Assembly: GCF_003993775.1 (NCBI RefSeq)
Contig: NZ_RJRZ01000022.1
Coordinates: 1-62,001 of the forward strand
Source of the DNA: Frigidibacter oleivorans
Lineage (GTDB): Bacteria; Pseudomonadota; Alphaproteobacteria; Rhodobacterales; Rhodobacteraceae
Direction of reading: 5' to 3'
Length of the DNA: 62,001 nucleotides
Shown here in pieces: positions 44,314 to 60,796 of this stretch. The notes below the pieces were generated by a model. It made no database searches and was not told where the DNA came from. It worked only from the letters and a program-made list of their open reading frames with translations. Within the stretch, counting starts at the first letter, position 1. Each line of letters opens with the position of its first letter. The position numbers were made by a program, and so were the translations under genes.

Positions 44314-45627
<1,314 letters not shown>

Positions 45628-45649
45628 GGATCACACAGGGAGGAAGACC

Positions 45650-46684
45650 ATGACCACATCGACCCGGCGCAGCATGCTGCGCCTCGGGGCGGCCGCACTG
45701 GCTGCACCCGCCATCGTCGCCGCGACCTCGGTGCGTGCCCAGGGCACGACCACCTGGCGGATGCAGGCCCTCTGGGGCGGCGGCACCACGCCCATGGAGT
45801 TCGAGGAACGCTTCTGCGCCCGCGTCGCCCAGCTGACCAACGGATCGCTGCAGATCACCCCCTTCGCGGGCGGCCAGATCGTGCCCGCGGCCCAGGCCTT
45901 CGACGCCGTGCGCGGCGGCGCCTTCGAACTGATGAAGACCTTCGACGGCTACACCGCCGGCAAGATCCCGGCGCATGGCTTCTCGTCCACCGTGCCCTTC
46001 GGCTTCCCCGAGGCCGACCAGTACGAGGCGTGGTTCTACGAACGCGACGGGCTGGACCTGGCGCGGGAAAGCTATGCCTCCGCCGGCCTGACCTATGTCG
46101 CGCCGACCGTCTATGGCGAGGAGCCCATTCATTCGCGCGTGCCGATCACCAGCATCGCGGACCTGAACGGGCTGAAGGGCCGCTTCGTCGGCCTCGCCGC
46201 GGCGGTGATGGGCGATTTCGGCGTCTCCGTTTCGCCGCTGCCGACCTCCGAGGTCTATTCGGCGCTCGACAAGGGGCTCGTGGACATCGCCGACCGCGGC
46301 GACATCAAGGCCAATTACGAGGAAGGCCTGCACGAGGTGGCCCAGTATCTGGTGCTGCCGGGCTTCCACCAGCCCTCGACCGCGACCTCCTATGTCGCGA
46401 ATACCCGGGCCTACGAGGCGCTGGACGACCAGCAGCGCGCCGCGCTCGAGGTCGCATCGCGCGAGATCTCGGGCACGCTGCGTCAGAACATCCTCGTCGC
46501 CAACGGCGAGTATATCGCCAGGTTCCAGGGGGCCGGGGTCGAGATCGTGGACCTCGATCCGCAGGATATCGCGGACAACCGCGCCAAGGCGGTGGAAAGC
46601 TGGGCCAAGGCGGCAACCGACGACCTGTCGAAGCGCATGATGGACTCGCAGGTCGCGCTGATGAAAGAACTGCGCCTGCTGTGA
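45650..46684 (+). CDS. dctP: DctP-type TRAP transporter solute-binding protein
   Basis: A 344-residue periplasmic protein with a Tat-like signal (STRRSMLRLGAAAL, cleavage near SVRAQG). The body has the DctP fold: MQALWGGGTTPMEFEERF, AQAFDAVRGGAFELMKTF and a ligand-loop LNGLKGRFVG. It starts 22 bases after the HMG-CoA reductase stop with GGGAGGAAGACC before the ATG. Co-transcription with that enzyme suggests mevalonate or a near relative as ligand; this is inference from context. Confidence 0.9.
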   Translation: MTTSTRRSMLRLGAAALAAPAIVAATSVRAQGTTTWRMQALWGGGTTPMEFEERFCARVAQLTNGSLQITPFAGGQIVPAAQAFDAVRGGAFELMKTFDGYTAGKIPAHGFSSTVPFGFPEADQYEAWFYERDGLDLARESYASAGLTYVAPTVYGEEPIHSRVPITSIADLNGLKGRFVGLAAAVMGDFGVSVSPLPTSEVYSALDKGLVDIADRGDIKANYEEGLHEVAQYLVLPGFHQPSTATSYVANTRAYEALDDQQRAALEVASREISGTLRQNILVANGEYIARFQGAGVEIVDLDPQDIADNRAKAVESWAKAATDDLSKRMMDSQVALMKELRLL

Positions 46685-46743
46685 CAGTCGCAAAGGGGCC
46701 GGCCTGAATCGTCGGGCCGCCCTTCCCTTTCCCGGAGTCCGTC

Positions 46744-47259
46744 ATGCTGCACCTGTCCCGTGGCATCACCGCGCTGAACCGCGGTCTCTTCGCCGTATCG
46801 AAATGGCTCGTCTACGCCATCGTCCTCCTGATGCTGTGGGAGGTGCTGTCGCGCTATCTGCTGGCGGCGCCCACCTCCTGGGCGCCCGAGCTTGCAACGC
46901 TCGTCTTCGGGCCCTTCTTCCTGCTGGGCGGGCCGTACCTTCTGCATCTGGGCGGGCATGTGGCGGTCGACATCGTCTCGGCCAAGGCTACGGGCAGGCT
47001 CGCCACGGTGCTGACCCTCATCGGCCTGCTGTTGGCGGCTGCCTTCGGGCTGATCCTGCTGTGGTTCGCGGCTCCGCTGGCCTGGCAGAGCTACAGCTAC
47101 GGCGAGACCAGCTATTCGGCCTGGAACCCTCCGATCTGGCCGGCCAAGCTGTTCCTGCCGCTCGCCGCGCTGCTGCTCGCCCTGCAGGCGCTGGCCGATA
47201 CCGTCGCCGTCCTCTCCGGCACCCATCCCGGGCCCGATGCGGGCGCGGAGGCGCAGTGA
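46744..47259 (+). CDS. dctQ: TRAP transporter small permease subunit (DctQ)
   Basis: A 171-residue membrane protein with four helices and the DctQ pattern: MLWEVLSRYLLAAPTSWAPELA and GGHVAVDIVSAKATG. Its stop overlaps the dctM start by one base (TGATG). It completes the importer with the flanking dctP and dctM. Confidence 0.9.
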   Translation: MLHLSRGITALNRGLFAVSKWLVYAIVLLMLWEVLSRYLLAAPTSWAPELATLVFGPFFLLGGPYLLHLGGHVAVDIVSAKATGRLATVLTLIGLLLAAAFGLILLWFAAPLAWQSYSYGETSYSAWNPPIWPAKLFLPLAALLLALQALADTVAVLSGTHPGPDAGAEAQ

Positions 47260-48581
47260 TGGAAAGCACGCTCATCCTGACCTTCATGTTCGTCTCGCTC
47301 GTCGTCTTCATGCTGAGCGGCGCAGGACTGGCCTTCGTGCTGGGCGCCATCGCCTTCATCTCGACAATCCTGCTGTGGGGGCCGGCGGCGCTGATCGTGG
47401 CGGTGCTGAACACCTTCGAGACGATGACCTCGGAAAGCCTGATGGCGATCCCGCTCTATGTGCTCATGGCCTCGATCCTGCAGAAATCCGCGGTGATCGA
47501 TGCGCTGTACGACGCGATGGAAACCTGGTTCGCACGGGTCAACGGCGGGCTTGCCGTCGGCACCATCGCGATCTGCACCATCCTCGCCGCGATGACGGGC
47601 GTCGTCGGCGCGGCCGTCGCCGCGATGGGCATCCTCGCCCTGCCCTCGATGCTGAAGCGCGGCTATTATCCGCCGCTGGCGCTGGGCGCGATCTGCGCCG
47701 GCGGCACGCTGGGCATCCTGATCCCGCCCTCGGTCATCACCATCGTCTACGCCATCACCGCGCAGATCTCGATCGGCCAGATGTTCGCCGCGGGCATCAT
47801 GCCGGGCCTCATCCTCGCAGGCAGCTACATCCTCTATATCCTCGTGCGGACCTGGATCAATCCCGAGCTTGCGCCGACGCCGGACGACATCCAGGACGTG
47901 CCGCTGCGGGTGAAGCTGTCGAAGCTGAAAAGCCTGATCCTGCCCGCCTTCGTCGTCCTGGGCGTGCTCGGCTCGATCTATGCCGGCATCGCCACCCCGA
48001 CCGAGGCCGCCGCCGTCGGCGTCCTGGGCGCGGCCGCCTCGGCGCTGATGATGCGGCGCTTCACCCTCTCGATGCTGTCGGGCAGCGCCACCGACACCTT
48101 GCGCGTCACGGCGATGATCCTATGGATCACCATCGGCGCGCGGGCCTTCATCTCGACCTTCGTGGCCACCGGCGGCGCGGATTCGCTGCTGAACTTCGTC
48201 GAGACGCTGGAGGCCTCGCGCTGGCTGGTGCTGGGCGTGATGATGCTGATCCTGATCTTCCTCGGGCTCTTCCTCGACGAGATCGGGATCATCCTGCTTT
48301 GCGTGCCGGTCTTCCTGCCGATCGTCACCGCGCTGGAATTCGACCCGTTGTGGTTCGGGGTGCTCTTCATGATCACGGCGCAGATGGCCTATATCACCCC
48401 GCCCTTCGGCTATACGCTCTTCTACCTCAAGGGCGTGCTGCCCAAAGGCATCGGCATCGGGCAGGTCTATCGCGGCGTGATCCCCTTCTTCCTGATCCAG
48501 GTGGTGATCCTGATCGTCTTCGCCCTCTTCCCCGGCCTGGTCACCTGGCTGCCCGAGGCGCTGGCCGGCAATGCGAGGTGA
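47259..48581 (+). CDS. dctM: TRAP transporter large permease subunit (DctM)
   Basis: A 440-residue DctM, exactly as long as the one at 6444-7766. Signatures include TGVVGAAVAAMGILALP, GGTLGILIPPSVITIVYA and the late GLFLDEIGIILLCVPVF. The ATG at 47259 overlaps the dctQ stop; the open frame upstream is a shadow of dctQ. It is the last gene of the mevalonate-like operon and is convergent with the Rieske oxygenase gene. Confidence 0.93.
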   Translation: MESTLILTFMFVSLVVFMLSGAGLAFVLGAIAFISTILLWGPAALIVAVLNTFETMTSESLMAIPLYVLMASILQKSAVIDALYDAMETWFARVNGGLAVGTIAICTILAAMTGVVGAAVAAMGILALPSMLKRGYYPPLALGAICAGGTLGILIPPSVITIVYAITAQISIGQMFAAGIMPGLILAGSYILYILVRTWINPELAPTPDDIQDVPLRVKLSKLKSLILPAFVVLGVLGSIYAGIATPTEAAAVGVLGAAASALMMRRFTLSMLSGSATDTLRVTAMILWITIGARAFISTFVATGGADSLLNFVETLEASRWLVLGVMMLILIFLGLFLDEIGIILLCVPVFLPIVTALEFDPLWFGVLFMITAQMAYITPPFGYTLFYLKGVLPKGIGIGQVYRGVIPFFLIQVVILIVFALFPGLVTWLPEALAGNAR

Positions 48582-48656: not shown

Positions 48657-49784
48657 TCAGGCCTGCGAGACCATCCGCGAGATCCATTGCGCGAACTCGT
48701 AGTTCGGCCGCTCCAGATGGGACAGGGGGCCGGGCCGGGCGAGGCGGCTCTGCATGCCCTGCCAGACCCGTTCGGTGCAGCCCTTGTCCTCTTCGTTCAC
48801 GTCGTCCAGCAACAGCTTCAGCGCCGCCAGATGCCCTTCGGCCGCGGGATCGGCGAGAAATTCCGGCGACAGCCCGCCGCCATAGAGGATCTTCACATGG
48901 TCCGGCCCGTCCGGCATCAGCGAGAGATACCAGAAATAGCCGGGCGTCAGCGTGATCAGCAGCGACGGATACAGCGCCAGCAGCCATGTCCGCCGCCGGT
49001 CGTCGCCCTGAAGCACGGTGTTGGACGGATGGGCCAGCGCCAGCGGCACCGTGTCGTCCTTGAGGATGTGGTGGTAGTTGAAGCCGGAAAAGCCCTCGGG
49101 GCAGACCATGTCCCTGAGCCTGGTCGCCCCGCCGATCGTGCCGGCATGGCAGACCGGCAGATGATAGCTTTCCATGAAGTTCTCGGCGAGGATCTTCCAG
49201 TTGGTCTGCCAGCGATGCTCTTCGCGGAAGGTCTCGACATAGGTCGACATGTCGAGATAGCCGACAAGATCGTCGATTTCGGCATAGATCGCCGACGGGT
49301 CGGGCAGGTCCGCGTCCAGCGTGACCATGATCCAGCCCTTCCAGTTCACGCAGCGGATGGCGGGAAGGCCCGATGTCTGCTTGCAGAAGCTGCCGTTCCG
49401 TTCCATCGCCGGGGCGCCGCGCAGCGATCCGTCCAGCGAATAGGTCCAGGCGTGATAGGGGCAGGTGATGACGCGCACGGTCCCGCGGCCTTCCAGCAGC
49501 AGCGACATGCGATGGCGGCAGACATTGGACATGGCGCGCAGCTCGCCGTCGCCGTCGCGCAGCACGATGATCGACTCGCCCGCGATCTGCAGCGTCATGT
49601 AATCGCCGCGCCCCTTCAGCGCCTCGGCACGGCCGGCGCAGACCCAGCTTTTCGCGAAGACATGCGATTGTTCCAAAGCGAGGAACTCTGCCGAGGTATA
49701 GACCGAGGCGGGCATGGCCGTGGCCCGTTCGAACGGAACGGCGACGTTCTCGGCAAGTTCGGCCGCGGGGGTGATCCTGTTCAT
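48657..49784 (-). CDS. Rieske non-heme iron oxygenase, alpha subunit
   Basis: A 375-residue oxygenase. The Rieske ligands are C-R-H in NVCRHR and C-P-Y-H in TCPYHAW. The catalytic domain has the mononuclear iron motif ENFMESYHLPVCH. The overall look, with NWKILAENFMESYH, is nearest to the quaternary-ammonium type monooxygenases (choline monooxygenase-like, GbcA-like) rather than to aromatic dioxygenases; this is a visual judgement. No reductase gene is adjacent. I take the ATG at 49784, with GGAG 6 bases before it; 49787, 49796 and 49856 are alternatives. A TTAGC/GCTAA repeat lies upstream. Confidence 0.85.
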   Translation of the reverse strand: MNRITPAAELAENVAVPFERATAMPASVYTSAEFLALEQSHVFAKSWVCAGRAEALKGRGDYMTLQIAGESIIVLRDGDGELRAMSNVCRHRMSLLLEGRGTVRVITCPYHAWTYSLDGSLRGAPAMERNGSFCKQTSGLPAIRCVNWKGWIMVTLDADLPDPSAIYAEIDDLVGYLDMSTYVETFREEHRWQTNWKILAENFMESYHLPVCHAGTIGGATRLRDMVCPEGFSGFNYHHILKDDTVPLALAHPSNTVLQGDDRRRTWLLALYPSLLITLTPGYFWYLSLMPDGPDHVKILYGGGLSPEFLADPAAEGHLAALKLLLDDVNEEDKGCTERVWQGMQSRLARPGPLSHLERPNYEFAQWISRMVSQA

Positions 49785-49912
49785 CATCAGCTCCATCTCG
49801 GCATCCCGGCAGGGCGGTCGGGCGCCCCCGCCGCTGCGGTTCGGACTGCGCGACACCGTGTCGTCAAGGATGGGAATGGCGGTTCGGTGGCCTAGGCGAA
49901 AGGAAGATTTTC

Positions 49913-49939
49913 ATTAGCTCCGCTTAGGGAATGGCTAAT
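49913..49939 (-). promoter_or_regulatory. LysR-type operator upstream of the Rieske oxygenase gene
   Basis: ATTAGC (49913-49918) and GCTAAT (49934-49939) form a perfect inverted repeat with 15 bases between, and an extra CTTAGG lies in the middle. The same TTAG/CTAA half-sites occur in the two promoters at 54.6 and 54.8 kb. Confidence 0.55.
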
Positions 49940-50017
49940 TTCTGCCGGTGTGGGCCCGGTTCCGCCACCGCCGCCAGGCGGCCCGTCCACGCGGCCTGCC
50001 CGCCGCCTGCAAAAGCA

Positions 50018-51127
50018 TCACTGCGATACGAAATCATGCAGGATGCGGATGCAGCCTTCCATCTGATCCACGGCGATGGACTCGTCGGGTTGGTGGCCGT
50101 CGCGCATCGTGCCCGGCCCCCAGACGACGGTCGGGATGCCTTGCGCGGCGAAGAAGCCTGCCTCGGTCCCGAAGGCGACGGTGCCGGGCGACGGGTCGGG
50201 CAGCAGCGCCGCGAAGGCCGTCAGTTCGGGCCGGGCCGGATCGGTGTCGAGGCCGGGGTAGCGGCCCGTCTCGGTGATTGTCACGGCGTCGGGGACGTCG
50301 AGGGTGGCAAGGATCGCCTCGGGCGTCTCGGCGGCAAGGTGCCGGATCTCGAACAACAGCTCGGCCCGGTCCGGCACGATGTTGAGCGCGCTGCCCCCGC
50401 GCAGCACCCCGGCATGGATCGTCGAAAAGGCGGGATCGTAGCGCGGATCCTGCGGTCCGCTCGCGGCGATCCGGGCCTGCCGGTCGCGGATCGCACAGAC
50501 CAGATCGGCCGCGGGATGCAGGGCATTGCGGAACCGGGGGGCCATGGCGGAATGTCCCGGCTCGCCCGAGGCCACCGCCCGATAGCTGGCCTTGCCCTTG
50601 TGCGCCGTAACCAGCCGCAGCGAGGTCGGCTCGCCCACGATGCACATCGCCGGCCGCCCGAGAGTCGGGACCACCCGGTCGATCATCTCGGCGATGCCGC
50701 GGCAGCCGATCTCTTCGTCCCAGCTGAGCGCGAAGGCCAGCGGCAGGCGCTGTCGGCCCGCCGGCAGGTTCTGCACCACGGTCAGAAAGCAGGCGATGAA
50801 GCCCTTCATGTCGGTCGTCCCCCGGCCGAAATGCCGCCCATCCCGCGTTTCCAGACGGAAAGGATCGCGGGACCAGTCCTGCCCCTCGACCGGAACGACA
50901 TCGCTATGGGCCGAACAGAGCAGCCCGCCCTCGCCCTCGCCCCGGCGGGCCAGCAGCCCGGCCTTGAGGCCGTCGGCCGAGCCGAGGCGCCAGGTGCGGA
51001 ACCCCTGCCCGTCCAGAAAGCGGCGGACCCAGTCCACCATGTCGCCGTTCGGGCCGCCGGTGATGGTCGAAAAGCCGACGAGGGTGGCGAGGATGTCGCG
51101 GCTTTCGCGCCGCAGGTCAGCTGTCAT
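50018..51127 (-). CDS. M20 family amidohydrolase (ArgE-like deacetylase)
   Basis: A 369-residue zinc peptidase-family enzyme. Metal and catalytic residues are visible in CSAHSDVVPV (His, Asp), GRGTTDMKGF (bridging Asp), SWDEEIG (Glu pair) and the late GPGTMRDGHQPDE (His). ArgE releases acetate from N-acetylornithine; here the neighbours (RidA, DUF1028, flavin and Rieske oxygenases) point to deacylation of some other N-acyl amino acid in a catabolic route. It starts 10 bases after the LysR gene stop, and is the last gene of the run from 54499. Confidence 0.88.
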   Translation of the reverse strand: MTADLRRESRDILATLVGFSTITGGPNGDMVDWVRRFLDGQGFRTWRLGSADGLKAGLLARRGEGEGGLLCSAHSDVVPVEGQDWSRDPFRLETRDGRHFGRGTTDMKGFIACFLTVVQNLPAGRQRLPLAFALSWDEEIGCRGIAEMIDRVVPTLGRPAMCIVGEPTSLRLVTAHKGKASYRAVASGEPGHSAMAPRFRNALHPAADLVCAIRDRQARIAASGPQDPRYDPAFSTIHAGVLRGGSALNIVPDRAELLFEIRHLAAETPEAILATLDVPDAVTITETGRYPGLDTDPARPELTAFAALLPDPSPGTVAFGTEAGFFAAQGIPTVVWGPGTMRDGHQPDESIAVDQMEGCIRILHDFVSQ

Positions 51128-51137
51128 GGCGGCGGCC

Positions 51138-52067
51138 TCAAGGGCTGGTCAGGCTGAACGCGCTGTGGTTGTTCAGATGACGGCGGGCATGTTCCAGGAA
51201 CGCGGCCACCGTGCGCGAACTGTCCGTCCCCTCGCTCAGCAGGACCCCCATCCGCAAGCTGCGCGCCGGCCCCGAGATCGGCACGAAGCGCAGCTTGCCG
51301 CCATCGGGGGCCCGGTCGTTCAGGGGGCGGATATTGGCGATCGAATAGCCGAAGTCATTGGCGACGAGCGAGCGCATGACGGCGATGTCGCGGGTCTTCT
51401 CAACGATCCGGGGCCGCGTATGGAGTCCGGCGAAAATCGACATGAAATAGTCGGCGCTGACCGGCAGATCCAGCAGGATCATCGGCAGGTCGACCAGTTC
51501 GGCCGGCGAGACCTCGGACCGCCCGGCCAGCGGGTGGCGGTCCGAGAAATAGGCGACGGGCGGCAGATCGGCCAGCGGCACGAAGGTCAGGTCCGAGGGG
51601 ATGTTGATGTCATAGGTGATGGCGACATCCAGACTGGCATCATGCAGCTGCGCAAACAGTTCGGACTGGTCGCGTTCGTATTGGTGGAACTGCACCTCGG
51701 GATAGGTGTCGACGAAGCTGCGGCGCAGCCTGGGCAGCACGATCTGGGCGAAGGTGACAAGGCAGCCGACATGCAGGTCACCCCTGACCTTGCCCGCCAG
51801 GTCGTTTGCCAGGTTGCCGAGCGAATGCGCCATCGCCACCGTCTCGCGCGCGCCCTCGAGAAAGCGCCGTCCCACCTGCGAGACCGACAGCCCCTGCGCA
51901 TGGCGGCGCACGAAGAGCTTCAGGCCGATCTCGGCCTCGAGCTGCGCGATGGCGGTCGAGATGGTGGGCGACGAGACATGGACCTTCTGCGCGGCCAGGG
52001 CGATCGAGCCGCAGTCGCAGACCGCGATGAAATACTCGAGCTGCCTCAGCGTGATGCGCAGCGGCAT
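51138..52067 (-). CDS. LysR-family transcriptional regulator
   Basis: A 309-residue LysR protein: LRQLEYFIAVCDCGSIALAAQ, SSPTISTAIAQLE, KLFVRRHAQGLS. It is embedded in the catabolic run rather than divergent from it: the start overlaps the DUF1028 stop by one base (TGATG), and argE follows after 10 bases. It therefore seems co-expressed with the pathway it controls. The longer open frame upstream of 52067 is a shadow of the DUF1028 gene. Confidence 0.9.
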   Translation of the reverse strand: MPLRITLRQLEYFIAVCDCGSIALAAQKVHVSSPTISTAIAQLEAEIGLKLFVRRHAQGLSVSQVGRRFLEGARETVAMAHSLGNLANDLAGKVRGDLHVGCLVTFAQIVLPRLRRSFVDTYPEVQFHQYERDQSELFAQLHDASLDVAITYDINIPSDLTFVPLADLPPVAYFSDRHPLAGRSEVSPAELVDLPMILLDLPVSADYFMSIFAGLHTRPRIVEKTRDIAVMRSLVANDFGYSIANIRPLNDRAPDGGKLRFVPISGPARSLRMGVLLSEGTDSSRTVAAFLEHARRHLNNHSAFSLTSP

Positions 52068-52747
52068 CAGCGGTCGTCGCCCGGGACGCCATAGGAGGGC
52101 GCGGCGTCGGGATTCAGGGCGCGGGTGACGTAATCGTCGGCCTGCGGGCGATAGATCTGCCAGATCCCCGCCAGCGCGGCGATGGGGCAATCCTCCTCCA
52201 GCCAGTCCACGCGCAGATCGGCATAAGGCCAGCTTTGCCTGTCGGCGATCAGCAGCCCGGCCGAATGGACCGGCCCCGCCTCGCCGCCCGCATCGGCCCC
52301 GGCGCGAAGCGCGGCGATCAGCCGATCCCCCAGCGTGCCGCCGGCCGCCTCGAACCCCGCGATCATCGCCGCCGGCACGCCCTCCTGTGCCAGCATGTTG
52401 CCGCCCGAGGCGCAGTCCCGCCCCTCTGCCGAGGTCCAGATACCCAGGGCGCGCGCCCCCGAATGCACCGCCGTCCGGCCCGCGGCGTCGATGGCCAGAA
52501 GCTGGCGGAACTCGGGATGGGCATCGGCCGCCCGCGCCGCCCCGACCGCCGCCGCCGCATCGTCGCCTGCGGCGAGGCGGTCCAGCATCGCGGCCCCGAG
52601 CGCGGGATTGGTCACGTTCTGCGTCGAGACGGCACCGACGCCTGCCCGCACCCAGGCACAGCGCGCGGCGACGGCCGGCGAGGACGAGGCGATCGCCACC
52701 CCGAATTGGCCGCTTTGCGCGCAGCGCCCGATGATCGAAAAGGTCAT
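52067..52747 (-). CDS. DUF1028 family protein
   Basis: A 226-residue protein of the DUF1028 family, recognised by the start MTFSIIGRCAQSGQFGVAIAS, the AGVGAVSTQNVTNP segment and the later ASGGNMLAQEGV and SAGLLIADRQSWPYADLRVDW. The fold is of the N-terminal nucleophile hydrolase type as I recall, but function is not established. These genes often accompany RidA and M20 peptidases in amino-acid-like compound catabolism. It starts 20 bases after the RidA stop. Confidence 0.85.
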   Translation of the reverse strand: MTFSIIGRCAQSGQFGVAIASSSPAVAARCAWVRAGVGAVSTQNVTNPALGAAMLDRLAAGDDAAAAVGAARAADAHPEFRQLLAIDAAGRTAVHSGARALGIWTSAEGRDCASGGNMLAQEGVPAAMIAGFEAAGGTLGDRLIAALRAGADAGGEAGPVHSAGLLIADRQSWPYADLRVDWLEEDCPIAALAGIWQIYRPQADDYVTRALNPDAAPSYGVPGDDR

Positions 52748-52767
52748 CCCGCCCCCCTGCCGACGTC

Positions 52768-53181
52768 TCAGTCCGGGATCACGGCCGTCGCGTCGATCTC
52801 GACCAGCCATTCGGGCCGCGCGAGGGCGACGACGACAAGGCCGGTGCAGACCGGATGCACGCCGCGGATGTATTCGCCCATCGTGCGATAGACGGCCTCG
52901 CGGTGGCGCACGTCGGTCAGATAGACCACCAGCTTGGTCAGATGCTCCATCTTCCCGCCGCTCTCCTCGATCAGCTGCCGGATGTTCTGCATGACCTTGT
53001 GGGTCTGATCAACCGGGTCGTGGCTGTCGATGTTTCGGGCGCTGTCCAGATCCTGAGGGCACTGGCCGCGCAGGAAGATGATGCGGCCGCGCGCGACGAC
53101 CGCCTGCGCGAGGTCGTTGTCGAGCTTCTGCTCGGGATAGGTGTCGCGGGTATTGAAGCTGCGGATGCGGGTATGGGCCAT
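52768..53181 (-). CDS. RidA family protein
   Basis: A 137-residue RidA/YjgF-type protein. The family core is visible in FLRGQCPQDLD, QTHKVMQNIRQLIEESG, LTKLVVYLTDVRHREAVYR and the end LARPEWLVEIDATAV, whose Arg would bind the carboxylate of an imine. RidA proteins hydrolyse enamine or imine intermediates to 2-oxo acids and ammonia. Its presence implies that the pathway makes such an intermediate. It lies 31 bases after the flavin monooxygenase gene. Confidence 0.9.
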   Translation of the reverse strand: MAHTRIRSFNTRDTYPEQKLDNDLAQAVVARGRIIFLRGQCPQDLDSARNIDSHDPVDQTHKVMQNIRQLIEESGGKMEHLTKLVVYLTDVRHREAVYRTMGEYIRGVHPVCTGLVVVALARPEWLVEIDATAVIPD

Positions 53182-53212
53182 CTTGGGTGTCCGGTTTGCG
53201 AATGGGGCGGGA

Positions 53213-54499
53213 TCAGGCGGTCATCTTGCCGGCGGCGGGCCGCAGGTCCCGGTCGGGGACATAGGCGCGGTACTGGGCCTGGATCTCGATATGATCGGCC
53301 AGATAGCGCGCATCGTGCCAGACGCCCCAGATGAAGCTGGAGCCCCGCCCCGAAAGCCACGGCAGCCCGAGGAAATAGATGCCCGGCGCGGACGAGACGC
53401 CGCGCTGGTGGCTGGGCCGGCCGTCGTCGTCGAAGGCGCCGACACGCATCCAGCCGTAATCGTTGCGAAACCCCGTCGCCCAGATGATCGTGCCGATCCC
53501 CGCCGCGCGCAGGTCCAGATGGGTCAGCGGCCGGGTCACGCAATCGGGCATGGCGGCGAGGACGCGGGCCGAGGGTTCGGGCGGCAGGTCGAGCCCGTTC
53601 CGCTCGATATGGGCATCCGCCTCGTCGAGGACCGAGAGGTAGTTCGCGTCGCCCCGGCGGATGTTGCGCTCCAGATCGGCACCGAAGGACAGGACGCCGT
53701 CGGCGCAGCCCTCGGTCCGGCCGACCAGCACCATCCCGGCATGGGCGAGACGGCGGAAATCGATGGTCTCGCCCCCCCGCGCGCCGCTGACCGCGATGGT
53801 CACATGTTCCGTGCCGGGCGCCCTCGCCTGCAGGTCCCACTTCCCCAGAACGCCCAGCCACCAGACGAAATCGCGGCCGCGATAGCTGCGCGGCGGGCGG
53901 TCATGCGGACCGACCGACAGATAGACCCTGCGCCCGGACAGCATCAGCTCGTCGGCGATCTGCACGCCCGACGACCCCGCGCCCACCACCAGCACCGCCC
54001 CTTCGGGCAGCGCGGCGGGGTTGCGGTAGTCGCTGGAATGGATCTGCAGGAGGCCGGGCGTTGGCGGCACGATCTGCGGGATGACCGGCGTCTGGAAGGC
54101 CCCGGTCGCGACGACGACGTTCCGCGCCTCGATCTCGCCCTCCGATGTTTCGGCACGATAGCCGGGCCGCCCCGCCAGCGGGACCAGCCCCGTCACCTCC
54201 ACCCCGCAACGGATCGGGGCCGCGAACCTTTGGGCATAGGCCTCGAAATAGGCGGCGACATCCTCCTTGGGCACGAAGGCGTCCGGGGAATGGCCCTCGA
54301 ACGTCATGCCCGGGAAGCGGTCGTGCCAGGCCGGCCCGTTCGCCACCAGGGAATCCCACCGCCGGCTGCGCCAGGCTTCGGCGACCCGGGCCCGTTCGAC
54401 CACGATATGGGGAATGGACTTGCGGGTCAGATGCTCGCTCATCGCGATGCCGGCTTGTCCTGCGCCGATGACCAGCGTGTCGGTGGTTTCACGTCCCAT
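53213..54499 (-). CDS. FAD-dependent monooxygenase (FMO/Baeyer-Villiger-like)
   Basis: A 428-residue flavoprotein with two dinucleotide-binding motifs: GAGQAG at residues 12-17 for FAD and VVGAGSSG near residue 170 for NADPH. FVPKEDVAAYFEAYA and ATGAFQTPVIP are typical of the NAD(P)/FAD oxidoreductases near FMO and YUCCA-type enzymes; the end carries IIWATGFRNDYGW. A flavin N- or S-oxygenase or a Baeyer-Villiger enzyme are all possible. It is the first gene of the run to 50018 and is divergent from the aldolase gene over a 427-base region. Confidence 0.87.
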   Translation of the reverse strand: MGRETTDTLVIGAGQAGIAMSEHLTRKSIPHIVVERARVAEAWRSRRWDSLVANGPAWHDRFPGMTFEGHSPDAFVPKEDVAAYFEAYAQRFAAPIRCGVEVTGLVPLAGRPGYRAETSEGEIEARNVVVATGAFQTPVIPQIVPPTPGLLQIHSSDYRNPAALPEGAVLVVGAGSSGVQIADELMLSGRRVYLSVGPHDRPPRSYRGRDFVWWLGVLGKWDLQARAPGTEHVTIAVSGARGGETIDFRRLAHAGMVLVGRTEGCADGVLSFGADLERNIRRGDANYLSVLDEADAHIERNGLDLPPEPSARVLAAMPDCVTRPLTHLDLRAAGIGTIIWATGFRNDYGWMRVGAFDDDGRPSHQRGVSSAPGIYFLGLPWLSGRGSSFIWGVWHDARYLADHIEIQAQYRAYVPDRDLRPAAGKMTA

Positions 54500-54595
54500 G
54501 CCATGTCCCCTGAAAGCCTGGCGCTTCTGCGCCCGGTCCCATCGTGCTTAGCCGTCGCCCGGATTTCCCAAAACTAATTAATTCAACATCAAACG

Positions 54596-54610
54596 TTAGG
54601 CGTTTCCTAA
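54596..54610 (-). promoter_or_regulatory. LysR-type operator of the monooxygenase operon
   Basis: TTAGG (54596-54600) and CCTAA (54606-54610) form a perfect inverted repeat with a 5-base centre, about 97 bases upstream of the monooxygenase start and beside AT-rich sequence (ACTAATTAATTC at about 54572-54583). Confidence 0.5.
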
Positions 54611-54798
54611 TCCGCAAGTACCGCGCACTTCCCGTGGCCGCGCCGGAATCCCCGTCCAGCCGTTGCCACAGCAGCGGACATGTTTGCCCGGAGAACAGGC
54701 ATTTCGCGGAGCCCGCCCCATGACGGCCTGTGACGCGGGCTTGCGGCCGTCCCGCTAACGCACGAGAACTGCTCGCTCTCTCGCCCGCGCCCCCCGTT

Positions 54799-54815
54799 GT
54801 TAGTTTCTGGCTAAC
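54799..54815 (+). promoter_or_regulatory. LysR-type operator of the aldolase gene
   Basis: GTTAG (54799-54803) and CTAAC (54811-54815) form a perfect inverted repeat with a 7-base centre, the T-N11-A shape expected for LysR binding, about 112 bases before the aldolase start. Confidence 0.6.
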
Positions 54816-54926
54816 CAGAGAGAAAGATAAATGAAGTATGCGCTTCGCCCCGCTGCGCCCACAACGACATCAGGCAACGGCTTTACCCTGTCGGGCAGGC
54901 CGCGACTGCGATGACGAGGTGAGACC

Positions 54927-55670
54927 ATGCTGGACCAGACCGTTCTCGACGAAACCAGGGCGCGCATCGATCTGGCGGCGGCCCTGCGGATGACGGCGCG
55001 CGCGAACATGCACGAGGCGGTGGCGAACCACTATTCGGTCGCGCTGTCGCCGGACGGCATGCGGTTCCTCATCAACCCCAAATGGATGCATTTCGCGCGC
55101 GTCAGGGCCTCGGACCTGATCCTCGTGGACATGAACGACCCGGACTCGCAAATGCGCCGCCCCGATCTCGACACAACGGCGCAGGTGATTCACGGGCAGG
55201 TGCATGCCCGCTGCCCCGCCGCGCGGGTGATCATGCACCTGCACCCGGTGATGACGACGGCGCTGGCCAGCATCGACCCGCCGCAGATGCCGGCAATCGA
55301 CCAGAACTCGGCGCGCTACTTCAACCGGCTGGCGGTGGACCTGCATTACGGCGGCATGGCCAATTCCGAAGAGGAAGGCGCGCGGCTGGCAAGCCTGCTG
55401 GGCGACAAGAGCCGGCTCTTGATGGGCAACCACGGCATCATGATCACCGCCGCCACCGTGGGCGAGGCCTGGGACGACATCTACACCTTCGACCGCGCGG
55501 CGCAGATCGTCGTCGGCGCCATGTCGACGGGCCGGCCGCTGAAATACCTCTCCGACGAAGCGGCCGAGCAGACGGCGAAAGACTGGGAAGGGATTGCCAG
55601 CTTCTCGATCCGGCATTTCGAGGAAATGAAGCTGATCCTCGACAAGGAGTGCCCGGACTACCGGGACTGA
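54927..55670 (+). CDS. class II aldolase/adducin family protein
   Basis: A 247-residue zinc-dependent class II aldolase-fold protein. Zinc ligands are visible as the HxH in MHLHPVMT and the later His in LMGNHGIMI. The family includes fuculose-phosphate aldolase and several decarboxylases and epimerases; members without a sugar-phosphate context often act on hydroxy-acid intermediates. AGGTGAGACC precedes the ATG. It is the only plus-strand gene of the LysR-controlled locus. The 60 bases after it hold no clear terminator. Confidence 0.88.
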   Translation: MLDQTVLDETRARIDLAAALRMTARANMHEAVANHYSVALSPDGMRFLINPKWMHFARVRASDLILVDMNDPDSQMRRPDLDTTAQVIHGQVHARCPAARVIMHLHPVMTTALASIDPPQMPAIDQNSARYFNRLAVDLHYGGMANSEEEGARLASLLGDKSRLLMGNHGIMITAATVGEAWDDIYTFDRAAQIVVGAMSTGRPLKYLSDEAAEQTAKDWEGIASFSIRHFEEMKLILDKECPDYRD

Positions 55671-55926: not shown

Positions 55927-56901
55927 CTACTTCAACGCGCCGACTTCGCGGTAATAGCGCTCGGCGCCGGGGTGCAGCGGCATGTCGGCGAGCGATTGGG
56001 CAGCATAGTCGATGTCCAGCGCCTTGGCCCAGGGCGCTTCGGTGGAGATGCTGTCGATATTCTCCCAGAACGCCTTGGTGACACGGTAGATCGTCTCCTC
56101 GTCCAGATCCGCCCGGACGCCGATCCCGACCGCGGTGTCGCTCGACATCACCGGCCCCTCGTTGACCTGGCCCTTGTACTGCCCCGCCGGCACCTCGGCG
56201 AGGTAGCGGAAGTTGCCCAGGAACTCGGTCACCGCATCGCCGTCCCAGCTTTCGGGACCGATGAAGCGGAGTTGCTCGGTTTCGGTGAACTGCAGGAACT
56301 GCTGGCAGGGATCGAGGCAGCCGTTGACATACATGTCGATCTTGCCGTCGAGGAACGACTGGAAGCCGGTCGCCCAGTTGGCGGTGATCGCCTCGTAGTC
56401 CTCGCCTGCGACGAGGCCGGTCGTGGCCGCGATCCAGTCCTTCGCCGCGTTGAAGGCTCCGCCGCCCGCGGGGCCGAGAAAGACCGTCGTGCCCTCGAGG
56501 TCGTCAAGCGTCCGGATGTCACTGTCGGCGCGCACGGCGTAGTGGTACTGGCCATAGGGGAACCACATCAGCAGCGCGACGTTCCTGGCCGCTTCGGAGG
56601 CATCGGCCTCGTTGCCGTACATCGCCGTCCCGGTCCGCATGAAGTCGTAGATTGTCGGTGAGGCCATGAACATGTCGAGGTTGCCGCGCCCTGTCTCAAG
56701 CTGGTGGACCGTCGCTGCCCCGCCGCTCGCGACCTCGATCTCGACGTCGTCGAGATGGTCGTTCACCACATTGGCGAAGGTCGCCATGGTGATGGCCTGC
56801 CCGAGCGAGGGCTCGATGGTGGCCATCGTGAGCCTGGTCTCGGCCAGCGCCGGACCGGCCGTCAGAGCGAATGCGGTGGCCGTGAAGATGATCGGTTTCA
56901 T
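55927..56901 (-). CDS. TAXI-family TRAP transporter solute-binding protein
   Basis: A 324-residue periplasmic protein with a signal peptide ending AGPALA-ET. The body shows TAXI features: MATIEPSLGQAITMATFANV at the mature start, HQLETGRGNLDMFMASP, GPAGGGAFNAAKDW and the closing LHPGAERYYREVGAL. It follows the fused permease by 31 bases on the same strand. It is only distantly like the TAXI protein at 4336-5379, so the ligands may differ. Confidence 0.88.
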   Translation of the reverse strand: MKPIIFTATAFALTAGPALAETRLTMATIEPSLGQAITMATFANVVNDHLDDVEIEVASGGAATVHQLETGRGNLDMFMASPTIYDFMRTGTAMYGNEADASEAARNVALLMWFPYGQYHYAVRADSDIRTLDDLEGTTVFLGPAGGGAFNAAKDWIAATTGLVAGEDYEAITANWATGFQSFLDGKIDMYVNGCLDPCQQFLQFTETEQLRFIGPESWDGDAVTEFLGNFRYLAEVPAGQYKGQVNEGPVMSSDTAVGIGVRADLDEETIYRVTKAFWENIDSISTEAPWAKALDIDYAAQSLADMPLHPGAERYYREVGALK

Positions 56902-56932
56902 TGTGTCCTCCTCCTGAAGTCCCAGAGCCTGT

Positions 56933-59029
56933 TCAGCCGGACAGCGCCTGCGCGCGCCGGCGGGAAAGCATGACCCCCGCGACGATCACCGCGAGCCCGG
57001 CAAGTGCTGCCGGCATCGCGATGGCGGACTGCGGCATGAGCGTGAGAAACCCGAGCGCGCCGCGCAGCAGCCGTTCCAGCGCCGAAAGGCGCGCCCGGTC
57101 GAACCCGGCGAAGGCCGATGCGATGAGCCACATGGCGAGAGCGAAGGCCATGACGATCCAGGCCAGATCGAACCAGCCCACCGTGCCGATGTCGATCATC
57201 GCCTGCGAGACGACACGTTCCTCGCCGAACCACTCGAAGATCACCTGCAGCTTGTAGAGTACCGCCGGGTGATAGGCGAAGACGAAGGGGATCAGGAACC
57301 CGGCAAAGGCGATCTTGGCGGCTTCGAACCCGGTGCGGATCGGGTCCGCCCCCGCGATCGGCGCCGCCGCGAAGGCAGCGAGCGCCACGGGCGGCGTGAC
57401 CGTCGACATCATCGCGAAGACCACCACGAACAGGTGCAGCGTCAGCGGCGGTATCCCGACCGCATCGATTCCCGACGAGAGCGCGATGACGATGATGAAG
57501 TATGTCGCCCCCGGCGGCAGGCCCATGCCCAGCACGATGGCGCCGAGCGCGACCACCAGCAGAACCACCGGCAGCGGCCCGTCCGCCACCTGCGCCAGCA
57601 GCAGCGACAGCCGCCCGGCGAAGCCCGAGGTCTGGATCAGCCCGACGATCAGCCCGATGGCCGTGACGATCACGACGATGGATGCGCACATCCGCCCCGC
57701 ATCGGCGAAGGCTGTCCAGATGCGCGTGCGGGACCGGAACTCCTTGAACAGGATGGCCGAGGCCGCCAGCGCCACGACGAAGCCGTAGAACCCCGCCTTG
57801 GGCACCGAGGGCTGCGCGAAGAGAAAGTAGGACAGCGTCCCCAGGGGCGCGACGAAGACGAGGCATTGCACCCACTCGGCGCGCGTCAGCCCGGGGCGGG
57901 TGTTTGCGGGCAAGGCGCCGATGCCCAGCCGACGGGCCTCGAAATAGACCGCAAGGAAGGTGCCGAGATAGTAGAAGGCTGCCGGCACGATGGCCGCGAC
58001 GACGATATAGCGGTATTCCAGCCCGATCTGGCCCGCGACGAAAAAGGCCACCACGCCCATCACCGGCGGCATGATCTGTCCGCCGGTGGAGGCTGCGGCC
58101 TCTACCGCGCCCGCGAAGGCGGGACGGAAGCCCGAGCGCCTGATGACCGGGATGGTCATGACGCCGGTCGCGACGACGTTGGAGATCGCCGCGCCCGAAA
58201 GCGTTCCGAACAGCGCCGAGGAGGCCACGGCCGCATGAGCCGCGCCGCCGGTGAACCCTCCGGTCAGGCGGTTCGCGATCTTCATCAGCAGGTCGCCCGC
58301 GCCAGAGGCCATGAGAACCGCACCGAACACGATGAAGATCAGGACGTCACCGGTCACGACCTGGATGGGCTGGCCGAACATGCCCCCGGTCTGCGCCCAG
58401 AACTGGAGCGCCATCTGGCGGAAGTTCTGCGCCACCGAGGCCTCGGAGCCCGCGAGTATGCCGGTCCAGCCGGGCAGGAAGCCCTTCACGAAGAAGTAGA
58501 TCACCCAAAAGAGGCAGAAGGCGACGATGAAGCCGCCGAAGAGCCTCCAGGTGAGGTAGAGGGTGATGACGGTCGCCATCGTGAACATCAGGTAGTCGAG
58601 CGGCCGGATCGTGGGCAGCATGCCCGCGTCGCTCGCGAAGATGTTGACCACCCAGCTCACGAAGGCGATGACGGCCAGCGCGGCCAGGATCCGGTTGGTC
58701 CAGCGCAGGCTGCCGCGGACGGGCAGCGCCAGCAGCGCGATGATGAAGCTGAGGATGATCGGCACCCCGATGATCAGCCCCGTCGGCAGCAGGACGGATC
58801 GCTCGAAGCCGCGATGCGCCGCGCCCAGCCAGTGCTCGCGCAGAAGGACGCGCTGGTCCCGGCGGCTCAGGTCGTCGAAGCCGGGGGACGTGGTCTCGAT
58901 CATCCAGCGAACGAACTCGCTGATCGGACCCGAAGCGGAATAGAGCAGGACAACCAGCGTGAAGAAGACCGCCACTGCATCGGTGATCCGGCGGTCGACG
59001 CGGCCGGGAAGAGGGGCATCAGCGTTCAT
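56933..59029 (-). CDS. TRAP transporter fused permease (4TM/12TM)
   Basis: A 698-residue inner-membrane protein with joined DctQ- and DctM-type parts. It has the core motifs GTLSGAAISNVVATGVMTIP, GGQIMPPVMGVVAF and MGLPPGATYF. Length is typical for TAXI partner permeases. Its start overlaps the sulfatase stop by 11 bases, so it is translated with that gene. Its partner binding protein lies directly downstream. Confidence 0.92.
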   Translation of the reverse strand: MNADAPLPGRVDRRITDAVAVFFTLVVLLYSASGPISEFVRWMIETTSPGFDDLSRRDQRVLLREHWLGAAHRGFERSVLLPTGLIIGVPIILSFIIALLALPVRGSLRWTNRILAALAVIAFVSWVVNIFASDAGMLPTIRPLDYLMFTMATVITLYLTWRLFGGFIVAFCLFWVIYFFVKGFLPGWTGILAGSEASVAQNFRQMALQFWAQTGGMFGQPIQVVTGDVLIFIVFGAVLMASGAGDLLMKIANRLTGGFTGGAAHAAVASSALFGTLSGAAISNVVATGVMTIPVIRRSGFRPAFAGAVEAAASTGGQIMPPVMGVVAFFVAGQIGLEYRYIVVAAIVPAAFYYLGTFLAVYFEARRLGIGALPANTRPGLTRAEWVQCLVFVAPLGTLSYFLFAQPSVPKAGFYGFVVALAASAILFKEFRSRTRIWTAFADAGRMCASIVVIVTAIGLIVGLIQTSGFAGRLSLLLAQVADGPLPVVLLVVALGAIVLGMGLPPGATYFIIVIALSSGIDAVGIPPLTLHLFVVVFAMMSTVTPPVALAAFAAAPIAGADPIRTGFEAAKIAFAGFLIPFVFAYHPAVLYKLQVIFEWFGEERVVSQAMIDIGTVGWFDLAWIVMAFALAMWLIASAFAGFDRARLSALERLLRGALGFLTLMPQSAIAMPAALAGLAVIVAGVMLSRRRAQALSG

Positions 59030-60677
59030 CGTCGCGAACCCGATCGGTGTGGACCTGCCGCGCGGGGCCGCGGTAGCGTTCGGTCAGCGCGGGCGGAACC
59101 TCCGAGCCGTCCACGAGGAACGGCAGGATGCCCTTGCGCATGGTGGCCCCCCGGCGCCGCTCGATATCCGCGTCCGACATCGTGACCCTTTGGGCGAGGC
59201 GGCGGCCCCAGGCGGCGAGGTGGTCGTAGAGCCGGTCAACCTGCCCTGCATGCGCCGGATCGTCGCCGAGGTCGGTGAACTCGTTGGGATCGGTGGCGAG
59301 GTCGAAGAGCATCGGCCGGAAGCCGCCCTCGAAATGGATCAGCTTCCAGCGCCCGTCGAACACCATGAAGATCCGCGCGTCCCGCGGGCTGACCCCGAGC
59401 GCCGTGCAGCGCGGGGTGACGGAGTAGTCGTATTCGCTGATCACGAAGTCCCGCCATGCCGGCGTCTCGCCCCGGAGCCAGGGCATCAGGGAGCGCCCTT
59501 CGATGATGTGATCCGGCACCGTTCCGCCGGCCGCCTCGACGAAGGTGGCGGCAAGGTCGATCGCCTCGACCAGCGCGCCACAGGTTGTGCCGCGGGTGGC
59601 GTCGGCCTCCGCACGCGGATCGCAGACGATCAGCGGGACCTTCACCGCCGCCTCGTGGAAGAAGTCCTTCTCGCCCAGCCAGTGATCGCCAAGGTAATCG
59701 CCGTGGTCCGAGGTCAGGACGATCATCGTGTCGTCCATCCGCCCGCTGGCCTCGAGGTAATCCAGAAGCCGCCCGAGCTGATCGTCACACTGCTTGATGA
59801 GGCCCATATAGGCCGGAATCACCTTCTCGCGAACCTCGTCCTTCTGGAAGGCCCCGGCGACCCTGGTCTCGTGATAGGCGGCGAGGACGGGGTGAGGATT
59901 TTCAAGCTCGGCCCTGTCGCGGACCGCGGGCAGAAGGTCACCGGCCCCGTACATCTCGTGATAGGGGGCGGGGACGATATAGGGCCAGTGCGGCTTGATG
60001 AACGAGACATGGGCGCACCACGGCGCCTTTGCCTGGTCGATGAAGCGGATGGTCTCCGAGGTCAGCCAGGGCGTTTCGCTGTCCTCTTCACGGATATTGG
60101 CGGGCTTGTCGGCGTTCATGAACATCCAGCCCGAAGCCATCTCGCCGTTCTCGACCCCCGCATTGGCGTAATCCGCCCAGGGGTTCTCGCCGTCGTAGCC
60201 CTTCGCCTTGAGGTATTCGTTATAGGGCGAGCGCCTTGTGTCGTAGAGCCCGTCCGGCCCCGCGCCCCACAGCCCGTCGTCCCGGATCCAGGCGTCGAAG
60301 CCGCAATCGGCCTGCCGCGCCCCGATCTCGCTGTCGGGCGCGAGGCCCAGCCGGGCCATACCTTTGGCATCCGCCTTCATATGGGTCTTTCCGAGAAGCC
60401 AGCAGTCCATCCCGAGTTCGCGCAGGTGATCGCCGAGGGTGATCTCGCCCACACGGAGCGGGAAACCGTTCCACTGCGCCCCGTGTGACGAGACATAGCG
60501 CCCGGTGTAGAAGCTCATCCGCGAGGCGCCGCAGATCGGCGACTGGACGTAGGCGTTGGTGAAGCGCACGCCCTTCGCCGCGAGGCGGTCGAAGTTCGGT
60601 GTGTGCAGGTGCGGGTGCCCCGCGCAGCTCAGGTAATCGAACCGGAGCTGGTCGTACATGACGAACAGGATATTCAT
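59019..60677 (-). CDS. sulfatase/phosphonate-monoester-hydrolase family enzyme
   Basis: A 552-residue cytoplasmic hydrolase of the alkaline phosphatase superfamily. The N-terminal metal Asp is in MYDQ (Asp9). The formylglycine site reads C-G-A-S-R at residues 49-53, with Ala in place of the usual Pro, followed by MSFYTGR. The second metal site is TSDHGDYLGD near residue 320. Overall it looks nearer to phosphonate monoester hydrolases and choline-sulfatase relatives than to aryl sulfatases. It overlaps the permease gene by 11 bases and follows a LysR gene by 119 bases. Confidence 0.85.
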   Translation of the reverse strand: MNILFVMYDQLRFDYLSCAGHPHLHTPNFDRLAAKGVRFTNAYVQSPICGASRMSFYTGRYVSSHGAQWNGFPLRVGEITLGDHLRELGMDCWLLGKTHMKADAKGMARLGLAPDSEIGARQADCGFDAWIRDDGLWGAGPDGLYDTRRSPYNEYLKAKGYDGENPWADYANAGVENGEMASGWMFMNADKPANIREEDSETPWLTSETIRFIDQAKAPWCAHVSFIKPHWPYIVPAPYHEMYGAGDLLPAVRDRAELENPHPVLAAYHETRVAGAFQKDEVREKVIPAYMGLIKQCDDQLGRLLDYLEASGRMDDTMIVLTSDHGDYLGDHWLGEKDFFHEAAVKVPLIVCDPRAEADATRGTTCGALVEAIDLAATFVEAAGGTVPDHIIEGRSLMPWLRGETPAWRDFVISEYDYSVTPRCTALGVSPRDARIFMVFDGRWKLIHFEGGFRPMLFDLATDPNEFTDLGDDPAHAGQVDRLYDHLAAWGRRLAQRVTMSDADIERRRGATMRKGILPFLVDGSEVPPALTERYRGPARQVHTDRVRDDER

Positions 60678-60731
60678 TCGCCTCCTCCCCTTGCTTTCCC
60701 GGTCGGCGAGTGCCGGGACATATCCTTGCTA

Positions 60732-60759
60732 GCGCCTCCCCCGGGTCGGGGGGAGGCGC
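60732..60759. terminator. hairpin between the LysR gene and the sulfatase gene
   Basis: GCGCCTCCCCC (60732-60742) and GGGGGAGGCGC (60749-60759) form a perfect 11-base stem with a 6-base loop. It would end LysR transcription or attenuate read-through into the sulfatase operon. There is no T-run. Confidence 0.5.
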
Positions 60760-60796
60760 GAAATAGGAATGGATATAACCGTGGGGAATATCCCGC

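Follow-up and report, generated by a model that had tools for sequence, protein, structure and literature searches.

The closest described relative of the locus examined here is the Hin pathway of Pseudomonas putida U and P. aeruginosa. In the published accounts, the hinFLHG genes (PA5393–PA5390) convert imidazole-4-acetate (ImAA) to aspartate, and HinK, a LysR regulator responding to ImAA, binds the hinD and hinF promoters (PMC8231116). HinF is given there as an FAD monooxygenase (EC 1.14.13.5), HinL as an enamine deaminase, and HinH and HinG as amidases, the latter under EC 3.5.1.8 (PMC6467879). The present locus occupies positions 48657–55670 of a 62,001-nt stretch of DNA, referred to below as the window, from the 4,048,906-base genome of Frigidibacter oleivorans. 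Its minus strand carries a run of genes for a flavin monooxygenase (FMO), a RidA-family protein, a DUF1028 protein, a LysR regulator and an M20 amidohydrolase annotated as ArgE (53213–54499 down to 50018–51127). Downstream of this run lies a gene for a Rieske non-haem iron oxygenase, with its own separate promoter, and the plus strand carries a class II aldolase/adducin-family gene. The locus is quite likely a Hin-type ImAA catabolic regulon in which an operator-linked Rieske oxygenase is proposed to feed the pathway. Loci and genomes used for comparison are cited by numbers beginning with L and G, respectively.

The families and order of the genes in the minus-strand run match hinFLHG in one operon, with a LysR gene between the counterparts of hinH and hinG. 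Judged by these features, FMO-RidA-DUF1028-LysR-ArgE is the published Hin module for conversion of ImAA to aspartate, plus a HinK-like LysR. A first-pass annotation of the window had placed the genes correctly and had stated that the set matched no pathway; the latter statement no longer holds. The FMO (53213–54499, minus strand) is predicted to be a HinF-type imidazoleacetate 4-monooxygenase (EC 1.14.13.5), and the RidA-family protein (52768–53181, minus; PF01042) a HinL-type enamine/imine deaminase. The DUF1028 protein (52067–52747, minus; PF06267, 217 bits) would be, by its position, the HinH-type amidase, and the M20 protein (50018–51127, minus), fourth in the hinFLHG order, a HinG-type deformylase/amidase. 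A literature search for DUF1028 returned nothing. The best solved relatives of the LysR protein (51138–52067, minus) are 6m5f and 3fzv (172 bits), the former of which we take to be HinK. In a comparison that rests on nine Pseudomonas loci rather than on the P. putida or P. aeruginosa hin sequences themselves, identity to the window proteins is 66–69% for FMO, 50–53% for RidA, 49–55% for DUF1028 and 39–40% for ArgE. Although the monooxygenase, RidA, amidase and M20 amidase genes share the order of the Pseudomonas pathway and are likewise accompanied by a HinK-like LysR, the window differs in having the regulator inside the operon, in lacking histamine dehydrogenase (HDH), aminotransferase and aldehyde dehydrogenase (ALDH) genes in the cluster, and in adding the Rieske oxygenase and the aldolase.

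A search of genome contigs with the FMO yielded at least 587 relatives, and the best 80 loci were analysed. Both RidA and DUF1028 are present in the stretch around the FMO in 72 of these. A neighbouring gene family, found in 24 of the 80, matches histamine dehydrogenase (1232 bits to 6de6), and it is this match that led to the identification of the Hin pathway. In Rhizobium and Mesorhizobium, and in many Rhodobacteraceae, the same FMO-RidA-DUF1028-LysR module and the same operator are found, but HDH, frequently accompanied by ALDH, serves as the entry, either in place of a Rieske oxygenase or in addition to one. A Leisingera plasmid (L230:13202–17239) has the order FMO-RidA-DUF1028-aldehyde dehydrogenase-LysR-FAD oxidoreductase-dodecin-ArgE. 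Its FAD oxidoreductase gene, adjoined by the dodecin gene, is 2070 bp long, the length of an HDH gene, and an aspartate ammonia-lyase gene adjoins argE on the opposite strand, which would complete a route to fumarate. An entirely different pathway, with no connection to histamine or ImAA, could be entertained on the grounds that the individual annotations (ArgE, DUF1028, RidA) name no pathway; it is highly improbable given that order and families equal hinFLHG and that HDH and aspartate ammonia-lyase genes occur in relatives. Homarine catabolism, a first guess, had no match among the papers listed in literature searches, no sequence comparison with a homarine cluster being made, and was dropped when the neighbouring genes pointed to histamine. 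On plasmids of Acetobacter pasteurianus (L116) and Klebsiella variicola (L228), FMO, RidA, DUF1028 and ArgE genes are accompanied by genes for a GMC oxidoreductase, an aldehyde dehydrogenase and a cytosine-type permease, with HDH absent from the annotation; this gene set suggests entry from an alcohol, perhaps imidazole-ethanol.

Three operators tie the transcription units of the locus together. All are exact 15-bp palindromes of a single geometry, TTAG-N7-CTAA: TTAGGGAATGGCTAA (49924–49938) upstream of the Rieske gene, with an extra TTAG half-site from 49914; TTAGGCGTTTCCTAA (54596–54610) upstream of the FMO-RidA-DUF1028-LysR-ArgE run; and TTAGTTTCTGGCTAA (54800–54814) upstream of the aldolase gene. 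Inverted TTAG/CTAA repeats had already been reported in front of these three units, the first of them within 49913–49939. The pattern TTAG-N0..20-CTAA has four matches in the window (two overlapping, hence three places) against 0.32 expected, a number reached by none of 100 shuffles, and a search of the window allowing one mismatch recovered no extra TTAG-N7-CTAA site (3 found, 1.27 expected). Genome-wide, the exact pattern occurs at four places, three of them in the analysed region, and a reversed control pattern at 12. The fourth site (L001:1501–1515), upstream of a rubrerythrin-VIT gene, reads TTAGAA-N3-TTCTAA and is presumably a different, iron-type box that overlaps the search pattern. 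By a post-hoc Poisson estimate, the chance of three sites within 7 kb is 6e-8; with the control density the value becomes 1.5e-6. The distance from site centre to gene is 104 bp for the FMO, 120 bp for the aldolase and 75–147 bp for the Rieske oxygenase, depending on which upstream start codon is chosen. HinK acts on LysR boxes of the form T-N11-A, according to a published account (PMC10912698), and this core can be read in each of the three operators.

The operator is conserved well beyond F. oleivorans. In 140 pooled loci, where promoters were taken as the 300 bp preceding each FMO, Rieske or HDH gene, TTAG-N7-CTAA occurs 78 times in 61 kb of promoters versus 13 times in the other 2.5 Mb; with identical contexts counted once, the promoter sites number 77, again versus 13 elsewhere. 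Control arms gave 0–2 promoter sites for nine other spacings and 0–3 for eleven permuted half-sites. Four of the pooled loci share sequence with others, and a single promoter may belong to two genes; the outcome is little altered when the overlapping loci are taken out. Operators upstream of the FMO mostly lie about 90–170 bp from the gene, and a fuller form, TTAGG-N5-CCTAA, is apparent from the G at position 5 and the C at position 11, each present in 53 of 80 sites. The exact TTAG-N7-CTAA site is absent from the nine Pseudomonas loci examined. That a single shared operator joins the three transcription units into one regulon, as the first-pass annotation had proposed, is well supported.

Presence of the operator follows the linked regulator. 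A site occurs in a scored promoter in 50 of 57 loci whose LysR is at least 47% identical to that of the window, versus 2 of 34 whose LysR is less similar (48/55 versus 2/32 after removal of the four overlapping loci). A midpoint-rooted tree of 91 LysR proteins contains one clade in which 53 of 60 loci have a site anywhere in the locus, versus 1 of 31 in the remainder; the support of this clade is 0.56, and that of an inner 58-member clade (53 with a site) is 0.98. Many of the loci, those of Mesorhizobium most of all, are closely related and not phylogenetically independent, so the associated p-values are descriptive only. The sites thus have the properties of a LysR-type box, namely a T-N11-A palindrome upstream of target genes that co-varies with the regulator, and the embedded HinK-like LysR is the likely binder of all three, in keeping with the original suggestion. 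Binding by some other regulator could be argued from genome G221, in which a TTAGG-N5-CCTAA site (L219:3945–3959) is flanked by a LysR-like gene and an acyl-CoA dehydrogenase gene in a stretch with no hin genes, so that the motif is not confined to a single protein; the agreement of site presence with the clade of the linked LysR makes this very unlikely for the window. The G221 site came from scanning 16 selected hin genomes in full, one of them without a site. Of the 57 sites obtained, 20 lie upstream of FMO, Rieske, HDH or RidA genes, 13 have the TTAGAA-N3-TTCTAA form and 24 belong to neither group; eight of these 24 were inspected (the G221 site, a transporter site in G101 and six without a recognised hin gene). 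In G101 the operator lies far from the hin genes, upstream of an ABC transporter operon whose 76–87% identical homologues flank hin clusters in L182 and L183; here the operator appears to have pointed to a transporter of the pathway.

The Rieske oxygenase is an addition to the Pseudomonas gene set. Its distribution was surveyed in 198 Rhodobacteraceae genomes, evenly drawn at one per genus and including F. oleivorans. Matches were counted at 55% identity or more for the Rieske protein and at 64% or more for HDH, with partial matches (e.g., G194, G013) kept. Two Rieske matches at 40% and 45% and the HDH matches below 64% were left out (59 genomes matched, 37 counted), and locus L035, with a Rieske match in one search and not in another, was excluded from the Rieske counts. 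The Rieske gene is present in 54 genomes, HDH in 37 and FMO (hinF) in 68; hinF is found in 49 of the 54 Rieske genomes and in 36 of the 37 HDH genomes. For Rieske with hinF the Fisher odds ratio is 64 (the genomes not being independent). The genes do co-occur in related genomes, as the first-pass annotation would lead one to expect. The Rieske and FMO matches are only 27–60 bp apart in 12 of 26 linked loci. A common order of the linked genes is FMO-Rieske-RidA-DUF1028-LysR-ArgE; the Rieske gene instead comes last in the window and in L074, L115 and L170. Six of the 20 hin-linked sites from the genome scan precede a Rieske gene, five of them more than 12 kb from the FMO (G062, G116, G132, G149, G202). 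Genomes G062 and G132 have the FMO alone in the fetched stretch and a Rieske-RidA-DUF1028-LysR run elsewhere, with operators at both; in G116 an operator lies upstream of a Rieske-RidA-DUF1028-ArgE run and none at the FMO.

Several observations weigh against, or qualify, placing the locus in a Hin pathway fed by the Rieske oxygenase. Against the nearest NCBIfam model, one not made for HinF, the window FMO scores 378 bits, below the cut-off of 498. On a conjugative plasmid of Klebsiella pneumoniae (L229), a 61% identical FMO is accompanied by ABC transporter and alpha-hydroxy acid oxidase genes, with no annotated RidA or DUF1028 near it in an incomplete gene table; the FMO family is accordingly wider than HinF, and an FMO alone is not diagnostic. 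The F. oleivorans genome has no HDH orthologue (best match 29–30%), HinC- or HinD-type entry genes and oxidases not having been searched for, and no reductase gene is linked to the Rieske gene at this locus. The operator is enriched at hin promoters and far from universal, an exact site being found within 300 bp of their own start for 45 of 118 FMO, 21 of 38 HDH and 11 of 50 Rieske genes; 15 of 20 fetched Rieske loci have no exact operator near the Rieske gene. The low Rieske count is explained in part by the many Rieske genes that sit inside the FMO operon. Among 69 FMO loci, 21 have only a Rieske gene within 12 kb, 23 only HDH, five both and 20 neither, although draft contigs may hide some. 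With five loci holding both and 20 neither, the Rieske oxygenase is no simple substitute for HDH, and the two look like optional entries. Strict mutual exclusion, which held in the 80-locus set (10 Rieske, 24 HDH, none with both), failed in the 198 genomes. G101 has two FMO copies, one beside a Rieske gene and the other beside HDH. Finally, five Rieske genomes of the sample lack hinF. These five, together with the occurrence of the aldolase in hin loci without a Rieske gene, would fit an arrangement in which the Rieske oxygenase and aldolase degrade an unrelated compound and share the regulator only. Such regulatory hitch-hiking is unlikely in view of the odds ratio for Rieske with hinF and of the short distances that separate the two genes in nearly half of the linked loci.

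The Rieske gene (48657–49787, minus strand; Pfam Rieske and Ring_hydroxyl_A) encodes an alpha subunit only, and its start codon is uncertain, with candidate in-frame starts at 49784–49856. The closest solved sequences are carnitine monooxygenase CntA and stachydrine demethylase Stc2. An AlphaFold2 model built from 12 sequences (mean pLDDT 85.8, pTM 0.87) has as its best folds Stc2 (3vca, 4quq; E 3e-24 to 4e-24) and CntA, at 22–25% identity. A Glu stands at the iron-bridging position (ENFMESYH), as in CntA and Stc2, and a motif with this Glu occurs in 59 of 60 sequences of the family (type A/B), the remaining one being unmatched by the motif search. In ring dioxygenases the bridging residue is Asp, and Glu is typical of Rieske oxygenases acting on quaternary ammonium compounds. 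With Stc2, CntA and GbcA the window enzyme shares the Rieske alpha subunit, and with the first two also the bridging Glu and the fold. It differs from Stc2 and CntA in being only 22–25% identical over the fold alignment, and from all three in its linkage to imidazole-acetate genes without a linked reductase; against the GbcA equivalog model NF058607 it scores 133.8 bits, far below the cut-off of 670. A candidate reductase (41%; G000:C2:42572–43459) is encoded elsewhere in the F. oleivorans genome, and in the relative L087 a reductase-like gene lies next to a second Rieske gene.

Since regulators of this family respond to ImAA and enzymes of this family act on quaternary nitrogen, we propose, tentatively, that the Rieske oxygenase N-demethylates methylated imidazole-acetates to ImAA. 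It is slightly less probable that ring-methylated imidazole-acetates, namely zooanemonin and/or methylimidazole-acetate, are the substrates of this enzyme as a new N-demethylase, together with the second Rieske oxygenase that nine relatives carry, with the ImAA produced being consumed by the Hin module. Zooanemonin is an imidazolium betaine of marine animals, 1,3-dimethylimidazolium-4-acetate, and methylimidazole-acetate is the acid end product of mammalian histamine breakdown. In one source, zooanemonin is called a tryptophan derivative (PMC7767343), at odds with the structure just given; animals methylate histamine on the ring and then oxidise the product to methylimidazole aldehyde, according to another (PMC8836602). 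Among the papers listed from open-licence PubMed Central, which holds no preprints and lacks most subscription papers, none was recognised as linking a Rieske enzyme with the breakdown of histamine or ImAA, and no gene for bacterial use of ring-methylated imidazole-acetates was recognised among the papers listed.

CntA is the best sequence match, is among the best folds and has the same bridging Glu, and the enzyme might instead act in the manner of CntA, hydroxylating a quaternary derivative of histamine or histidine (such as N,N,N-trimethylhistamine or hercynine) next to its side-chain nitrogen. The products would be trimethylamine and an imidazole aldehyde or keto acid, later oxidised to ImAA. 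That route needs an aldehyde dehydrogenase, and in the 80-locus set an ALDH match occurs in none of the 10 Rieske loci (at least 54% identity) versus 18 of the 24 HDH loci, which leaves the CntA-like reaction rather improbable, even though ALDH-family genes are found in some Rieske loci outside that set (L176, L185, L187). About as doubtful is a role as a second ring oxygenase whose direct hydroxylation of an imidazole derivative would supply RidA and DUF1028 without the FMO. Its appeal lies in four genomes (G062, G116, G132, G084) whose Rieske gene is in a run with RidA and DUF1028 and whose FMO is elsewhere. In those genomes, however, the stretch around the FMO, which was all that was searched for it, holds no RidA/DUF1028 pair, so that the arrangement looks like one pathway split in two, and the retention of hinF in most Rieske genomes also speaks against a bypass of the FMO. 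N-demethylation of methylated imidazole-acetates is preferred here.

The second Rieske protein (30–34% identical to the first; motif ENFMEGYH) occurs in the same cluster in 9 of 51 loci (L186:10640–11737, L165, L166, L176, L181, L185, L187, L189 and L087) and is possibly a second demethylase. What looks like a 919-aa Rieske fusion in L163 probably results from a reading frame that continues upstream of the gene, since its first 590 residues contain no Pfam domain. One frame in L179 (10250–11434) encodes a flavin reductase domain and, after it, a LysR substrate-binding domain, and gives no helix-turn-helix match. This frame and similar ones in L113, L171 and L175 lie inside hin operons between the Rieske and RidA genes; only in L179 were the domains checked. 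Just upstream of the operator and Rieske run of G116 (L150:5845–7979) are genes for a nitrilase-type hydrolase, whose family recurs in 5 of 54 loci, and a class III aminotransferase.

The aldolase (54927–55670, plus strand; NF005689, PRK07490 type) is, by its operator, a predicted member of the regulon. The operator stands at the usual distance from it in the window, and the same holds in one other genus: in L037 the aldolase gene, 85% identical, is divergent from the Rieske gene across a single operator. The hin loci L048, L053 and L070 contain homologues of 55–59% identity and L117 contains a further one; none of these loci has a Rieske gene. The other aldolase matches in the 198 genomes are at most 53% identical, and by comparison of contigs and positions none of them lies within 12 kb of an FMO; one, in G129 (49%), is about 9 kb from a Rieske gene. 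A role for the aldolase in fixing formaldehyde released by demethylation was considered; that the gene also occurs in hin loci lacking a Rieske oxygenase makes this less likely. The pathway outlined in the first-pass annotation survives in its oxidation of a nitrogen compound, its RidA step and its deacylation, and the N-dealkylation that it offered is plausible for the Rieske enzyme; for the aldol cleavage that was to follow, no support was found.

In the proposed scheme, the HinK-like LysR, an ImAA sensor by homology, would activate the three units through TTAGg-N5-cCTAA boxes. The Rieske oxygenase would oxidatively N-demethylate N-methylated imidazole-acetates, giving ImAA and formaldehyde. 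The FMO (HinF) would then oxygenate ImAA, the opening and processing of the imidazolone would fall to RidA (HinL) and DUF1028 (HinH), and the M20 enzyme (HinG) would remove the one-carbon residue to leave aspartate, probably from N-formylaspartate. We infer the binding by LysR and each of these reactions in F. oleivorans, above all the substrate of the Rieske oxygenase, from the gene families and order, the operator conservation and the co-occurrence observed.

Transporter genes flank the locus on both sides. At 44314–48581 an HMG-CoA reductase gene is followed by a DctPQM TRAP transporter (45650–48581), probably a separate mevalonate-type uptake operon; because it follows the HMG-CoA reductase gene, DctPQM was set aside as an importer for the pathway. 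Next to the aldolase, at 55927–61690, are genes for a sulfatase, a fused TRAP permease, a TAXI binding protein and a LysR regulator. The TAXI/TRAP genes (55927–59029) were provisionally set aside as an importer, being preceded by the sulfatase and another LysR, although TRAP and TAXI homologues (76% and 66%, respectively) lie beside hin genes in L198.

The core pathway is already published, and the less known part is a Rieske oxygenase under the shared operator. A puzzling list of annotations is replaced by a named pathway, and the conserved 15-bp operator indicates genes of the pathway, and a transporter, also where these are unlinked. The Rieske protein represents an uncharacterised oxygenase present in about a quarter of the sampled Rhodobacteraceae (54/198 genomes). 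If the proposed reaction is true, its gene would be, within the literature searched, the first for bacterial use of ring-methylated imidazole-acetates, and the enzyme may open methylated imidazoles to these bacteria as a source of carbon and nitrogen.

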